A stretch of 64,000 nt of DNA from Pantoea sp. Nvir (GTDB lineage Bacteria; Pseudomonadota; Gammaproteobacteria; Enterobacterales; Enterobacteriaceae): assembly GCF_009829915.1 (NCBI RefSeq), contig NZ_SZZW01000002.1:1-64000 (forward strand), in the 5' to 3' direction. A model generated the notes under the pieces. It did no database searches. It was not told where the DNA came from and saw only the letters and a list, made by a program, of their open reading frames with translations. Both the position numbers and the translations under genes were made by a program. Below are positions 4,821-39,938 of this stretch, in pieces. The first letter of the stretch is position 1; each line of letters starts with the position of its first letter.

Positions 4821-5303
4821 TTAACGATTACAATTTTTTATGATACGTTCCTTATCAAGTTTCCACTCCCGTTCTTTAATATTAGCGCGTTTATCGTGCT
4901 CTTTCTTACCACGCGCAATGCCGATTTTTAGCTTACACCAAGCATTTTTCCAGTAGAGAGAAAGTGCAACTATGGTGTAACCCTCACGGTTAATGCGGCC
5001 GTAGAGCGAGCTCAGCTCTCTCTGATTAAGCAATAACTTGCGATTACGTGTCGGATCGTAAATGATATGTATGGAGGCCATAGCTAACGGATGAAAAGTA
5101 GATCCAAATAGATATGCTTCTCCATTACGTAAAAGAATATAACTGTCATTAATGTTAGCTTTACCAGCACGAATCGATTTGACTTCCCATCCTTGTAGCA
5201 CTAATCCCGCTTCAAATTCTTCTTCAATGAAATATTCATAACGGGCGCGTTTGTTGAGCGTAGCAGTAAAAGAACTGGGTTTATGTACTCTTTTATTTGT
5301 CAT
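4821..5303 (-). CDS. smpB: SsrA-binding protein SmpB
   Basis: SmpB binds the tRNA-like domain of tmRNA and carries it into the ribosomal A site for trans-translation. The protein is 160 residues, the same as E. coli. It keeps the N-terminal [17 protein letters not shown] block, the [14 protein letters not shown] strand, the [16 protein letters not shown] segment and the basic C-terminal tail with [12 protein letters not shown]. That tail occupies the vacant mRNA channel in the family. The gene lies just upstream of ssrA on the same strand, the arrangement seen in E. coli, and both partners are intact. Confidence in function is high. Confidence 0.97.
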
Positions 5304-30364: not shown

Positions 30365-31618
30365 ATGTTGAAGAGTGCAATGAATATTGCAGACTATGAT
30401 GCCGAGTTGTGGCAAGCAATGCAGCAAGAAAAAGTCCGTCAGGAAGAACATATTGAACTCATCGCTTCAGAAAACTACACTAGTCCACGTGTAATGCAGG
30501 CTCAAGGCTCGCAGTTCACCAACAAATATGCAGAAGGATATCCAGGAAAACGCTACTACGGCGGTTGTGAATATGTTGATGTTATTGAACAACTTGCGAT
30601 TGATCGAGCTAAAAAGTTGTTCGGTGCAGATTACGCTAATGTACAGCCACACTCTGGTTCTCAAGCCAACTTTGCTGTCTATATGGCACTGTTACAGCCA
30701 GGAGAAACCATCCTAGGAATGAATTTATCTCATGGTGGTCATCTAACTCATGGGTCACCGGTAAACCTCTCTGGTAAACTCTATAACGTTGTGCCTTATG
30801 GCATCGATAAGAGCGGTAAAATTAATTATAATGAATTAGAGAAATTGGCGAAAAAGTATCAGCCTAAAATGATTGTAGGCGGCTTTTCAGCTTATTCTGG
30901 CATTTGTGATTGGCAAAAAATGCGTAAAATAGCCGACAGTGTCGGTTCTTATTTATTTGTCGACATGGCGCATATAGCTGGGCTAGTAGCTGCTGACGTT
31001 TACCCAAGCCCAGTGCCACATGCACACATCGTTACTTCAACAACACATAAAACTCTGGCCGGTCCTCGTGGAGGATTGATTTTGGCGAAAGGAGGTAACG
31101 AAGATTTTTACAAGAAAATAAATGCTGCTGTCTTCCCCGGCGGACAGGGCGGTCCGTTGATGCATGTGATAGCAGGCAAAGCTGTGGCATTCAAAGAGGC
31201 CATGGAACCGGAGTTCACGGTATACCAGCAGCAGGTTGCTAAAAACTCTAAAGCGATGGTTAAAGTGTTAATTGAACGAGGTTATAGTATTGTGTCAGGC
31301 AGCACTAATAATCACTTATTTCTAATTGATTTGATCAATAAAAAACTGACTGGTAAGGAAGCAGATGCCGCGCTAGGTCGCGCTAATATCACCGTTAACA
31401 AAAACAGCGTTCCGAATGATCCAAAAAGTCCTTTTGTGACTTCCGGTATCCGTATTGGCACACCCGCGGTTACCCGTCGTGGCTTTAAAGAGGCGGAAGT
31501 ATGCGAGCTAGCTAGCTGGATTGCAGATGTACTGGATAATGTCAATGACACAGTAACCATCGAGCGTACTAAGCAGAAAGTGTTAAAAATTTGTGCTCGT
31601 CTGCCAGTTTACGCATAA
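30365..31618 (+). CDS. glyA: Serine hydroxymethyltransferase
   Basis: GlyA interconverts serine and glycine and loads one-carbon units onto tetrahydrofolate, needed by PurN and for other biosynthesis. The 417 residues equal E. coli. The PLP lysine lies in [14 protein letters not shown] (about K229). Other conserved blocks are [27 protein letters not shown] and [14 protein letters not shown]. The ATG follows AGGAG, with the [16 protein letters not shown] start matching E. coli MLKREMNIADYD. The gene stands alone between two decayed gaps. Confidence 0.98.
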
Positions 31619-34521: not shown

Positions 34522-35313
34522 TTAGAGTTTAAGTCTCTCACTTAGCTCATCGCGTATGCTGAAAAGCATCGATTTGACTACACGCGGGTTGCCTGCTACG
34601 ATGTTACCGGAACTTATAAAATCATGACCACCGGTAAAATCTGTCACAAGACCACCTGCTTCACGTACTAGTAGTTCACCAGCAGTAAAATTCCATGGCT
34701 TTAAGGCAATTTCAAAATAACCATCTGTGCGACCTGCGGCAACATATGCTAGATCTAGCGCGGCTGATCCACTATATCGAAAATCCGCATATTGCATAAA
34801 TAATTTAGCTAACGCATTTATATAAGCCGGAGCGTGCTGCTTAGATTTACATGGAAACCCCGTTGACAGGATGGCGCCTACTAAATTACGTGTAGTACTT
34901 CCGCGCAGACGGTAACCGTTAAGTTGTGTGCCTTGGCCTCTAACCGCGGTAAAAAGTTCATTACGCATCGGATCGTAAACGACTGCTACTGTAGTGTGTC
35001 CTTTAGTGCGAACTGCAATAGAAACGGAGAAATGCGGGAGACGTTTGATAAAATTAATAGTCCCATCCAGTGGGTCTATTATCCATTGAATGTCCTTATC
35101 CTCTCCTGCTATTTTGCCACTTTCTTTAGAAAAGATAGAGTGTTGTGGGTAAGATTTTTGAATTACTTCAATAATCAGCCGCTCTGAATCTCGGTCAATA
35201 TTGTTAATGCTTTTTTGGCTGGTTTCAACCGAGCCTGGAATTTCATAATTTCTGGCAATGAAGTTTCCTGCCTTGCGTGCAGCGCGCACGGCAATGTTGA
35301 GCATGGGATGCAT
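34522..35313 (-). CDS. suhB: SuhB, inositol monophosphatase-family protein with altered active site
   Basis: SuhB of E. coli is an inositol monophosphatase and also a Nus factor in the rRNA antitermination complex. The 263-residue protein follows E. coli (267) closely, including MHPMLNIAVRAARKAGN and RTDGYFEIALKPW. A four-residue deletion occurs before D40. DPLDGT (D80, D83) is kept, but the metal ligand matching E. coli Glu67 is K63 (codon 35125-35127) and the ligand matching Asp212 is N208 (codon 34690-34692, PWNFTAGE). Arg184 is replaced by Y180. Phosphatase activity is therefore doubtful, while the fold is intact. I infer that the RNA polymerase or ribosome-assembly role is what is kept. 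Confidence 0.93.
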   Translation of the reverse strand: MHPMLNIAVRAARKAGNFIARNYEIPGSVETSQKSINNIDRDSERLIIEVIQKSYPQHSIFSKESGKIAGEDKDIQWIIDPLDGTINFIKRLPHFSVSIAVRTKGHTTVAVVYDPMRNELFTAVRGQGTQLNGYRLRGSTTRNLVGAILSTGFPCKSKQHAPAYINALAKLFMQYADFRYSGSAALDLAYVAAGRTDGYFEIALKPWNFTAGELLVREAGGLVTDFTGGHDFISSGNIVAGNPRVVKSMLFSIRDELSERLKL

Positions 35314-35434
35314 GGTCTATCTCTTACAAATATTAAAGAACGCTAAAAAACGGCGCGCAGTGTAGCAGTGCATGCTTTAAATGTCTCGACTTATGTTAGC
35401 ATAAGACCCATCTTTCTCTCACTAATGCTAATGT

Positions 35435-36163
35435 ATGCTACAGAACATTCGGATCGTGCTAGTGGAAACCTCTCATACCGGTAACATAGGTGCGGTAGCT
35501 CGTGCTATGAAAACTATGGGTTTAAGTAAATTTTATCTAGTTAATCCATTGGTAAAACCTGATTCAAGGGCAATGTCGCTAGCGGCAGGGGCTAGTGACA
35601 TACTCAATGATGTAAACATCGTTCAGTCTTTTAACGATGCTATTGAGGACTGTAGTCTAGTAATCGGTACTAGCAACCGTTCACGTTCGCTACCTTGGCC
35701 AAGTTTAGACGCACGCGAATGTGGTGTGAAAAGTGTAGAAGAATGTCAAAACGGGCGAATTGCTCTGGTATTTGGCCGTGAACGGATAGGTCTGACCAAT
35801 AAAGAGTTACAACAGTGTCACTATCAAGTCGCAATTCAAGCTAATTCAGAGTACAGCTCGCTTAATCTGGCAATGGCTGTACAAATCATTGCCTACGAAG
35901 TTCGTATGGCGTGGTTAAAAGAGCAGAAAAAAGCACAGTGCTCTGTGCCGGTTCATGTCAAATCGTCTTACCCATCGGTAAAAGATTTGGAACTCTTCTA
36001 TCAGCACCTGGAGCAAATCCTTCTTCATAGCGGTTTTATTCGTAAAGGTAATCCAGGAAAAGTGATGAGCAAGCTGCGCCGCCTCTATGCACGAGCTCGT
36101 CCGGAACGTGATGAGCTGAATATTCTGCGTGGGATGCTTGCCTCATTTGAGGATACTAAATAA
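35435..36163 (+). CDS. trmJ: tRNA (cytidine/uridine-2'-O-)-methyltransferase TrmJ
   Basis: TrmJ is a SPOUT-family enzyme that methylates the ribose of nucleotide 32 in several tRNAs. The 242-residue protein (246 in E. coli) begins [20 protein letters not shown] as in E. coli. The trefoil-knot SAM site is seen in [18 protein letters not shown] and the [18 protein letters not shown] block. The C-terminal [21 protein letters not shown] is also kept. It is divergent from suhB and precedes the iscR remnant, the same order as in E. coli. Confidence 0.96.
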
Positions 36164-36292
36164 GTAATTGAGTAGAATACTCAACTAATAGTTGAATAAC
36201 ATATTCAGCAATAGAGGATTTCAGTTATCTGTTATTTTGTTATTAACTCTTTGATAATAGGACTCTATTAAATTAAGAGAAGTATCATGTTA

Positions 36293-36720
36293 TGAGACTG
36301 ACATTAAACGGATGTTACGCCGTTACTGCTATGTTGCACATTGCCTTGTATTCTCATGAAGGACCTGTTTCGCTGGCTGCTATTTCCGAGCATCAACATC
36401 TCTTTCGCTTTCCTGTGTAGATCAGTTAGTTAAGCAGTTACGTAAGCATGGATTGGTGATTAAAGTACGTAGCCATGGTGGGGTCTACCTGTTAAGCGAA
36501 AAGTCTGGTTCCGTTGCGGTGAATGAAGTTATTACCACAGTCAATGAATCAGTTGATGATACTAAATGCCGGGGTGAAAAAGGATGCCAATCTGGGACAC
36601 TTTTCCTAACACATGTTTTGTGGTGTGATTTCACCGTGTGTATTAGCGAGGTTTTAAACAACATTACAGTCGCTGAATTAGTGAATAATCAGCAGATCCT
36701 GTATGTAGCCTACCGTTAAA
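36293..36720 (+). pseudogene. iscR: iscR relic (iron-sulfur cluster regulator)
   Basis: From ATG 36293 the frame reads [19 protein letters not shown], matching IscR MRLTSKGRYAVTAMLDVAL, up to about 36390. A frameshift there is followed by [16 protein letters not shown], matching LSYLEQLFSRLRKNGL in the winged helix. The second frame then continues to a normal-looking TAA at 36718-36720. Of the cluster cysteines, TKCRGEKGC keeps the equivalents of C92 and C98, but C104 is lost (LFLTH for CLTH). IscR represses the isc operon when it carries a 2Fe-2S cluster. Both frameshift and lost ligand indicate a dead gene, though decay is recent. Confidence 0.87.
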
Positions 36721-36872
36721 AATCCCAGAAAAATGATCATTTTTAAAACAAGCACTTTCAGAAAATTCACGTTAACATTAGTGCTTACTAATCCTAGACT
36801 CGGCTCTGATATTAACACATTCAGGATCGAATCTATATGACTTATATTTTTATTTCATAGAGCTTTAGCATA

Positions 36873-38039
36873 ATGAAACTACCTATTTACCTTGATTATG
36901 CAGCAACAACGCCAGTCGATTCGCGTGTAGCTAATAAAATGATGCAGTTCCTGACATTAGACGGTACCTTTGGTAATCCTGCTTCACGTTCGCACCGTTT
37001 TGGCTGGCAAGCAGAAGAAGCGGTCGATATCGCACGCAATCAAGTGGCTCAATTGGTTAATGCCGATCCACGTGAAATTATCTTCACTTCCGGCACTACT
37101 GAATCTGATAACCTCGCTCTAAAAGGAACTGCGTACGCAAAGCGAAAATACGGCAACCATATTATCACTAGCCAGACTGAACATAAAGCAGTACTTGATA
37201 GCTGTAAACAACTAGAAAAAGAAGGTTTTATAGTTACTTATCTAGCACCATCGGCTAATGGTGTTATTACGCTGGATACCGTCCATGACGCGTTGTGTAA
37301 CGACACAATACTTGTATCTCTAATGCATGTTAATAATGAAATTGGTGTGATTCAGGATATATCTGGTATCGGTGAACTTTGTCGCGTGCGTGATATTTTA
37401 TTCCACGTCGATGCTGCACAAAGCATCGGTAAATTGTCAATCGATCTAAGCAAACTAAAGATCGATCTGATGTCTTTTTCCGCTCATAAGATCTACGGCC
37501 CGAAAGGGATCGGCGCGCTTTATGTACGCCGTAATCCAAAAGTACAAATTGATGCTCAGATACATGGCGGCGGTCACGAGAGATGCATGCGAGCCGGTAC
37601 TTTACCAGTGCATCAAATTGTCGGTATGGGTGAAGCTTTCCGTATTGCTAAAGAAGTGAGCAAAAAAGAGGCAGCATGGTTAGCAATGCTACGTGCAAAG
37701 CTATGGCACGGGCTAAGTGCGCTGGATGGAGTACAGATTAACGGTGACCTTACCCGAAGTGTGCCCAATATTCTCAATGTTAGTTTTGCTGGAACTGACG
37801 GAGAAGAGCTTCTAATGGCATTAAAAGATCTGGCACTCTCCTCTGGTTCGGCGTGCACTTCTGCGAGTGTGGAACCCTCTTACGTATTGCGTGCTATTGG
37901 GTTAGATGACACAGTGGCGCATAGTTCACTACGTTTTTCATTGGGCCGTTTTACCACTGAAGAAGAGATTGAATACGCTATTGCGCTAGTAAGAAAGATG
38001 GTGACCAAGCTTCGTATGTCTGTGTCTGATTCATGTTAA
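36873..38039 (+). CDS. iscS: Cysteine desulfurase IscS, C-terminally shortened
   Basis: IscS takes sulfur from cysteine, with PLP, and hands it to partners for iron-sulfur clusters, thiolated tRNA and thiamine. Catalytic parts are intact: the PLP lysine in [12 protein letters not shown], the histidine in TEHKAVLD, and the persulfide cysteine in [11 protein letters not shown]. The protein is 388 residues against 404 in E. coli. The last part diverges after about KMVTKLR and lacks the conserved tail ending in WAHH. That tail belongs to the IscU-binding region. iscU, iscA, hscB, hscA and fdx are not recognisable downstream. I infer that it now mainly feeds tRNA thiolation or another scaffold system. 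Confidence 0.94.
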
Positions 38040-39938
38040 TCCCTACACTATATTAAATAGGTAAAAAAATAAAAAAAAGATGCACATCACTCATCTAATA
38101 AAAAACAACCTTTTTAAAACTATTATCTTAACTAGTAATTAATATGCTGCACACGTCCATCTGGAGCGCGGTGTTACACTTTTATGCGTTTTATCATGGT
38201 GATGCGCAACTGTGCATTCATAGCAATAAGCATCTGATGATTTACAACGATGGCATTCATTGTCTTCTCTGTACCGCGTGCTTGGTATGTGCTGCGCGCG
38301 TTTATGGTGGAACAAGTGAAGTGTCCATCCTAGTCTGCGGTTTTTAGGGCTAGAAAATTGTCTGCATACTGCTATCAACTTTGCTATTCACCCTGCTAAA
38401 AGATAAGTTTGGAAGATATTCGATAATATATATGTGAAGTATCTATAATCAATATGACATTTATCAGTCATAAGGATGGTACTCCAAGTCATTGATGTAC
38501 AGGTGGTGAAACGTTTTAAAGCTGGAGTATATGAACCGTCTCTAAGACTACATCGTGGTCATATTCTATGTGGCTGCCACGGACCATGGTAAGGTTTAGT
38601 GGTTAATAGAAACAAAATCACATGGTACATTATATGTCATCTTTGCAAAAGTTGGCGTGAATCTGAAAGAGACGGTAGTAAAGTGTGCTGCAGATTAAGC
38701 GTAAACGTAATAGCCACAGCAATGATTATAGAGTTGAAAGGATCCGGAGTCGTGAACATCACACTTTATGACAGTTCATGAAGAGAATATAGAGTAGAAT
38801 TATCTACTTCTCAAGAAGCAAAAGGTGCGGTGAGTGACTCTATCAAATCCAGATAATATGCACATTGCTTGTAAAACCGAAGGGAACAATACACCTGACC
38901 TACAAAGGTTTTTACCTAAAAATTTATAAACAGCCACTCTTCTCTTAGTCGTGAAGATAGGAACGGATATCCCAAGATAATGCAATTATGCTATTGCTCA
39001 GAAGTTGGTAGCATTTCTATATTAATATATGATTTATACATATTATACAAACAAGTATAATGAGTCAATTATACAGTTGAGGAACATCATGTAACAAAAA
39101 CAGCGAGGGTATGCTATCTGTCATACACTTGAGGTAATGCTATAAAAGTATAGATTTTTACTTTATTTTTTAGACGTGCAGTCTTGAGTAATATGGTATA
39201 GTGCTTTACCATGCCAGACTAAATCTAGCTTGACAAGCCTGAATTGTAGTGGACTATAGCTAAGACTGTGACTACAGTCAGCGCGCTAAAGTAAATCATA
39301 AACTGCAACAAGTCATTTAGTGGATTATCCGTTTAACAGTGAATACCGCGCGGTCTGAGTGTCGTACTATTAGTGTACTTGGAACATTTGCTAATAGCTA
39401 AGAGGGGGGGCTAGTCAATGGCTACTAGCGATAAAAACTATACCAACATCGCTAAAATTAGGCGACGAATTTATCACCATATCGCTTATAGTGTTAGCGA
39501 TGTACATTAAGATAATGTATTAAGTTTTATGGTGATGTTGCTATATGGCATGAATAGATCATGTTTAATCTGAATGCGTTTCCAAGAGTATTTTTTATTG
39601 GTTTTTAAATTGTACTTCAATTGTACTTTATTAGTAAAGTACACGGTGACAAGAGCAGTATATAGCTCGGGATTTATAGATAACGATACCCGTCATTTCT
39701 ATAGTAATGGATAAAACAGGTAAGTTGATTATACCTCCTTGTATTCGTAAATGTTAATAATAAACATATTTACCGTATTTGCTTAGTTGCAACACCCTGA
39801 CAAATATTAATAATTTATAATTATCCATATAATGGGGCAATAGAACATAAGCAAATACTTGTCTATATCCACATAACTGGCGCGTTTTTACCAGAAGCAT
39901 GTTCCCAGTTTTTTTGAATACTAGAAACAGAGGTCAAG
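38040..39938. other. Gene-free decayed stretch, former isc-hsc region
   Basis: In E. coli iscU, iscA, hscB, hscA, fdx, iscX, pepB, sseB and sseA lie between iscS and ndk, with others. About 1.9 kb remains here and none is readable. A patch of higher GC at about 38145-38345 has short open frames on both strands, including a minus-strand Cys/His-rich one, and may be an unidentified relic. The rest is AT-rich. The promoter of ndk must lie near the right end. Confidence 0.5.

Follow-up and report, generated by a model that had tools for sequence, protein, structure and literature searches.

The suhB locus and the lesions in its catalytic site

In the window, by which we mean the whole stretch of 64,000 nucleotides analysed here, suhB lies on the minus strand (Table 1), and its translation runs through 263 residues without an inner stop. 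The product scores 469.7 bits against the inositol-1-monophosphatase model NF008027 of NCBIfam (cut-off 332) and 221.1 bits against Pfam PF00459 (cut-off 27), shares 71-73% of its residues with E. coli SuhB, and is encoded next to a divergent trmJ, an arrangement shared with E. coli. Its best named matches come from Erwinia, Tatumella and Pantoea. The genome comprises 1,425,354 bases in 11 contigs, and the five nearest relatives by SuhB have genomes of 2.4 to 5.0 Mb. From the small genome and its broken genes we infer that the organism is a host-bound symbiont, and likewise for the other reduced genomes considered below.

Table 1. Features of suhB and its leader in the window (E. coli SuhB numbering in brackets).
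Feature	Positions	Strand	Codon	Basis
suhB coding sequence, 263 codons + stop	34522-35313	-		open frame, profile-matched
K63 (E67K), lost Mg ligand	35125-35127	-	AAA	alignment with 109 relatives
N208 (D212N), lost Mg ligand	34690-34692	-	AAT	alignment with 109 relatives
Y180 (R184Y)	34774-34776	-	TAT	alignment with 109 relatives
Junction of in-frame 12-base deletion, D38-T41 (DFVT) removed	35202-35203	-		alignment
D80 and D83 (D84, D87), both remaining metal ligands	35065-35076	-		alignment
K247 and L250 (K251, L254, NusA AR2 contact), kept	34564-34575	-		alignment
boxA of the suhB leader, GTTCTTTAATA	35331-35341	-		perfect consensus match, 28 to 18 bases upstream of start codon

The window protein was aligned with SuhB from 109 relatives (29 + 80 loci), which are best hits and hence selected by similarity, and residues are numbered as in E. 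coli SuhB, verified against the MG1655 record. We take E67, D84, D87 and D212 to be the magnesium ligands of SuhB, as in human IMPase and the IMPase family. The original prediction, made from this DNA alone, held that Glu67 is replaced by Lys, Asp212 by Asn and Arg184 by Tyr, and that Asp84 and Asp87 are retained. The alignment bears this out, as all 109 relatives share E67, D212 and R184, and D84, D87, T89 and E205 are all present in the window SuhB. Both ligand losses can be explained by single G-to-A changes, since the DNA of three near relatives has GAA and GAT at these codons. The protein had further been described as otherwise conserved, which is roughly correct, with changes at 15 of the 136 near-invariant sites (the same residue in at least 108 of the 109 relatives), but this description overlooked the loss of DFVT, of which D38 and F39 are present in 108/109 relatives and V40 and T41 in 109/109.

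An active inositol monophosphatase has four acidic ligands, and E67K and D212N leave the window SuhB with two of them. As two of the four magnesium ligands and the DFVT motif are missing, catalysis is very probably gone, judging from the sequence, although residual weak activity is possible because two ligands stay. The earlier remark on Arg184 and the dimer state has to be softened: wild-type E. coli SuhB is likewise described as a dimer (Huang et al., 2019, PMC6614801), so R184Y need not alter the oligomeric state.

Constraint on suhB and predicted structure of its product

Compared with its counterpart in genome G027, the window SuhB is 80% identical; of the 13 further ORFs in the window that have a match in G027, seven lie above this value and six below, for example 89% for the ORF at 30365-31618, 82% for iscS (36873-38039) and 79% for trmJ (35435-36163). 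The changes in the window SuhB fall less often on near-invariant sites (15/136, four of them within the deletion) than on variable sites (39/131; Fisher p = 2e-4). In the window protein alone, changes at near-invariant sites are not significantly concentrated in the active site (4/17 active-site versus 11/119 other sites, p = 0.096). The open frame by itself is weak evidence for constraint, because in a neutral simulation with about 50 amino-acid changes the frame also stays free of stops in 14% of the runs. Twelve of 14 pairwise dN/dS values were set aside for high or saturated dS, and the two remaining pairs, both composed of ligand-lacking sequences from reduced genomes, gave 0.21-0.24 (G096/G232) and 0.22-0.33 (G092/G230). 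A neutrally evolving gene, which the original prediction had named as an observation that would speak against it, is not what the data suggest: dN/dS is low in the two unsaturated pairs, and the window suhB, with a mid-range identity to its counterpart and fewer changes at conserved sites, does not look neutral or decaying.

The fold seems to survive the deletion, since the predicted model matches known SuhB structures closely. AlphaFold, supplied with 103 sequences, gave a model of the window SuhB with a pLDDT of 91 and a pTM of 0.91, the top structural match of which is E. coli SuhB (2qfl; Z 42.1, rmsd 1.3 A, 258 residues), while SuhB from the rrn antitermination complex (6tqn) matches with Z 41.4 and an rmsd of 1.3 over 261 residues. 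Confidence is lower around the deletion, at 74-75 in the blocks of residues 21-40. An earlier model built from 23 close sequences reached a pLDDT of 53 and was discarded.

Recurrent ligand loss in reduced genomes

SuhB was searched (E 1e-15) in 80 of 392 genomes, for the most part small and from the same family, and was present in 73 and missing in seven. The sequences of 72 were read (the 73 minus that of G014), four from other families, all with intact ligands, and 68 from the same family, with genomes of 0.3-2.7 Mb. At least one acidic residue at positions 67, 84, 87 and 212 is missing in 64 of these 68, the ligand-intact SuhB being those of G170 (2.7 Mb), G110 (2.2 Mb), G067 (2.0 Mb) and G095 (1.4 Mb). 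Binned by rounded genome size, intact SuhB was counted in 0/28 same-family genomes below 0.7 Mb, 0/21 at 0.7-1.0 Mb, 1/10 at 1.0-1.5 Mb, 0/3 at 1.5-2.0 Mb and 3/6 above; that is, ligand loss affects 49/49 under 1 Mb, 12/13 at 1.0-2.0 Mb and 3/6 above. The alignment of SuhB from relatives that had been proposed as a check sets sites invariant in 109/109 sequences against reduced genomes with ligand loss in 64/68. Without recourse to an alignment, the motif DPxDGT is found in all 109 large-genome SuhB and in only 9 of the 72 of the reduced set. None of the four ligand residues is left in 10 of the 72, and the lost combinations vary between lineages. Even the smallest genomes, of 0.3 Mb, have an open suhB frame; one stop inside the SuhB match was listed for seven search rows, and the first 225 residues are stop-free in 72/72.

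Two further sets were read, one of them of large genomes. E/D/D/D is kept in 17 of 18 separately chosen large genomes. The exception is G163 (locus L398, 4.3 Mb), where E67K stands alone in a large genome and may be a first step of the same loss. Among 21 additional rows, ligand loss is seen in G128 (3.3 Mb), G205 (3.1 Mb) and G239 (already counted above), as well as in G056 (other family, 1.7 Mb) and in G038, which has E67K together with D212E, still acidic; the remaining 16 keep all four. Within one genus code (g72), SuhB is intact in G384 (3.6 Mb) and altered in G106, G239 and G440 (0.7-0.9 Mb). Outside the order, 23 of 30 small genomes (0.9-2.0 Mb) have E/D/D/D at the aligned positions and seven do not (G619, G706, G728, G698, G796, G588 and G470), although several of the seven are poor matches and may belong to other IMPase subfamilies.

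A separate observation concerns G619 (L280, 1.0 Mb, other order), which carries D212N and E205A, SuhB of G474 and G726 from the same genus code being fully intact; this is a separate loss outside the order.

The number of independent losses was estimated on a NusA tree of 101 rows (100 once G071 was dropped), for which the SuhB states of the other large genomes were read from their sequences. A loss clade was defined as a lineage with no intact site in which one or more SuhB are altered. There are 11 such clades, seven of which are single tips or have support of at least 80. When G163 is counted as intact the number is 10, and Fitch parsimony gives 9 changes with four absences scored as lost. 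The exact number stays loose, since the two largest clades have support of 73 and 27, and 11 may be an undercount because AT-rich rows tend to join falsely and ligand sets differ inside clades. A SuhB gene tree with seven loss clades was set aside, as its 45-tip clade swallows G056, likely an AT-rich artefact.

CysQ as a control, and retention of acidic sites

CysQ belongs to the IMPase superfamily and shares the SuhB fold, and the four metal ligands of SuhB also line up in the CysQ alignment. CysQ was found in 28 of 77 genomes searched, with all four ligands kept in 27/27 full-length copies; the remaining one is fragmentary but has every ligand that falls within it. SuhB and CysQ thus share the fold family and the ligand set and differ in the fate of the latter: in the 23 genomes with full CysQ and SuhB (the window genome and G014 excluded), the ligands are intact in 23/23 CysQ and in 2/23 SuhB. 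The ligand motifs are likewise retained in CysQ and in a third IMPase-fold gene of the window genome. A general, AT-driven loss of acidic residues therefore fails to explain SuhB, because CysQ is intact in the same genomes.

General erosion of acidic residues does not account for the pattern inside SuhB either, because active-site Asp and Glu are kept less often than the others. Of 18 near-invariant Asp/Glu sites in the 72 SuhB, the eight in the active site, assigned by homology from a wider residue list, are kept in 25-62% of the sequences and the other ten in 56-100%. Median retention is about 0.31 for the eight and 0.81 for the ten (one-sided Mann-Whitney p = 0.0006), where D38, D44 and E68 had joined the eight-site list after their retention had been seen; with the four ligands alone against the other Asp/Glu sites, p = 0.0097. 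The contrast between active-site and other sites is weaker when all residue types are taken (one-sided p = 0.026), because the pocket residues G186 and S187 are well kept. D87 is the best retained of the four ligands (62%). Chance is excluded as the cause of the lesions, because the same lesion class is found in 64/68 reduced family genomes and is absent from CysQ.

NusA contact and the boxA element

The SuhB of E. coli is reported to bind the AR2 domain of NusA, and a K251/L254 double mutant to have a more than 1000-fold lower affinity (PMC6614801), while relief of the defects of E. coli suhB mutants is described as independent of IMPase activity (PMC6614801, PMC4807359). Both contact residues are kept in the window SuhB. 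The window genome also has a full-length NusA (G000:C2:388651-390135), which spans E. coli residues 1-495 and the AR2 of which is 68% identical to that of E. coli. In addition, Nus factors are reported to repress E. coli suhB via a leader boxA with the consensus GYTCTTTAANA (PMC5725501). The E. coli element is GTTCTTTAACA, and the leader of the window suhB contains an intact boxA too, a feature outside the protein which ties this gene to the Nus complex. Taken together, the window SuhB is like E. coli SuhB (2qfl, 6ib7, 6ib8, 6tqn) in sequence, trmJ neighbourhood, predicted fold, K251/L254 and leader boxA, and unlike it in E67K, D212N, R184Y and the loss of D38-T41. It also differs from the IMPase-defective E. 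coli SuhB variants of the laboratory, which are engineered, as it is the product of a natural gene with several lesions.

Of the 108 large-genome relatives whose upstream sequence is long enough, 107 have a perfect boxA within the last 50 bases before suhB. The single relative without one is G014 (L003, 2.4 Mb, same genus), whose SuhB ligands are intact. In the reduced, ligand-lacking set the leader element is usually lost, a perfect copy being found for only 5 of 64 (0.017 expected). Nor do K251 and L254 get special conservation across reduced genomes on the alignment: K251 is K in 50/72, near the 0.71 median of other near-invariant sites, and K or R at 251 with a hydrophobic residue at 254 is found in 52 of the 68 same-family SuhB.

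AR2 of NusA is nearer to E. coli than AR1 is in 43/67 reduced rows (the window, G014 and G128 included) versus 9/29 large ones. The idea that AR2 is retained owing to SuhB was not borne out, as AR2 outlasts AR1 also in 3/4 genomes without SuhB. Among the 75 genomes that have NusA, the protein lacks AR2 in 6, and SuhB is absent in 2/6 of these versus 3/69 of the others (Fisher p = 0.048). The AR2-less genomes in which SuhB is nevertheless present are G182, G151, G111 and G190; in match quality among the 73 SuhB, G182 is the poorest and G151 and G111 rank low, but G190 does not. The NusA matches that end before AR2 are L367, L374 and L375 (G190, G111 and G118), together with those of G151, G182 and G161.

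A 16S gene search of the window assembly found none, and a genome scan for boxA with at most one mismatch gave 13 matches versus 6 in the reversed control; six of the 13 loci were checked and showed neither Rfam RNA nor rRNA. A second perfect boxA at window positions 4871-4881 was rejected, as it falls within an ORF of the opposite strand and two matches occurred in 13/100 shuffles.

Interpretation

We conclude, with a probability of roughly 0.8, that the window SuhB is catalytically dead as read from its sequence and is kept as a structural Nus factor, being one case of a repeated pattern. The main result goes beyond this one gene and is the repeated outcome across reduced genomes, obtained with a clean control. 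The separation of function proposed in the original prediction, an enzyme without catalysis whose transcription role is kept, is supported: the gene does not look to be decaying, the catalytic lesions recur, CysQ is intact and so is the boxA of the window. In the scheme we propose, selection would keep SuhB as a protein of the IMPase fold which, bound to AR2 of NusA and to the leader of nascent rRNA, helps RNA polymerase to make and fold rRNA. In the shrunken genomes of the family the need for the phosphatase would vanish, the catalytic site would then be eroded by AT-biased mutation, and the non-catalytic role would hold the gene in the genome. From the sequences we infer that the activity is lost and the Nus function retained, and also why the loss took place.

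More generally, and with somewhat less assurance, we favour the reading that, as genomes of this family shrink, SuhB normally ends up without catalysis while its gene is kept, and that a metal-free Nus scaffold would have arisen many times independently. The conservation of the active site in large genomes would then reflect a need for the phosphatase that host restriction ends, and the rRNA role would stay until AR2 of NusA goes.

Among other explanations, the one we take most seriously, though still consider unlikely, is that the gene owes its retention not to rRNA antitermination but to a different non-catalytic role of its product, for instance as an RNA chaperone or in secretion. It would fit the finding that neither boxA nor the residue pair contacting NusA enjoys special conservation in reduced genomes; yet the non-catalytic function described for E. 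coli SuhB is the Nus complex (PMC4807359, PMC6614801), and AR2-less NusA goes with SuhB absence in the comparison given above. That suhB is an early pseudogene, merely still open and on its way out here and in the other lineages, seems to us improbable. SuhB is open in genomes as small as 0.3 Mb, dN/dS is 0.2-0.3 in both unsaturated pairs, and the window SuhB has an identity in the middle of the range of its neighbours, with changes that avoid conserved sites. What speaks for decay is the reduced genome (1.43 Mb) with its broken neighbour iscR, the 14% of neutral simulations that keep the frame open, the lack of SuhB in 7/80 genomes at E 1e-15, and a Buchnera comparison in which suhB stands in a Calaphidinae and Phyllaphidinae row, apparently of lost genes (PMC11188193).

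The residues that remain could also belong to a re-tooled enzyme, which holds a metal or another ligand via D84/D87 and acts on a new substrate, as D84, D87, T89 and E205 are retained in the window and D87 is the most retained ligand of the reduced set. A new activity would, however, call for a shared new residue set, and the ligand losses differ by lineage, with none of the four left in 10/72, so that we hold this for very improbable. To sequencing or assembly errors as the source of the lesions we give next to no credence: the window assembly consists of 11 contigs and comes without read-support information, but the frame is intact, the lesions are three unique substitutions and a clean 12-base deletion among open neighbours, and the same lesion class recurs in 64/68 other reduced genomes.

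Under the preferred reading, a SuhB that is catalysis-dead and kept for its Nus role, reduced genomes would offer natural separation-of-function alleles of a protein with two known activities, the phosphatase and the part in rRNA transcription. Such alleles, evolved many times, tell the indispensable activity from the lost one, and the pattern suggests that cells with shrunken genomes need SuhB for making rRNA and not for its chemistry. The reduced-genome SuhB are besides a ready set of proteins with which to ask whether the Nus role needs metal, dimer or substrate pocket. Membership of the SuhB gene family should not by itself be used to assign inositol metabolism to symbionts. In a study of Blochmannia, a gene of the IMPase family was put into an inositol pathway (PMC1360075), and a Buchnera model is reported to have omitted suhB as unconnected to biomass (PMC2649895). 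In the accessible text of the literature, which comprised neither subscription papers nor preprints, we found no report of catalytic-residue loss in SuhB of reduced genomes, and a prior report may exist.

The neighbouring isc genes

Next to trmJ, iscR is broken (window 36163-36873), as E. coli IscR matches 36292-36402 and 36402-36716 in different frames. For iscU, iscA, hscB, hscA, fdx and iscX there was no match in the window at E 0.01 (region 36873-39938). The iscS gene (36873-38039) is an open ORF, but its alignment with E. coli IscS leaves out the C-terminal 23 residues of the latter, and IscS may be retained for roles outside the ISC scaffold.
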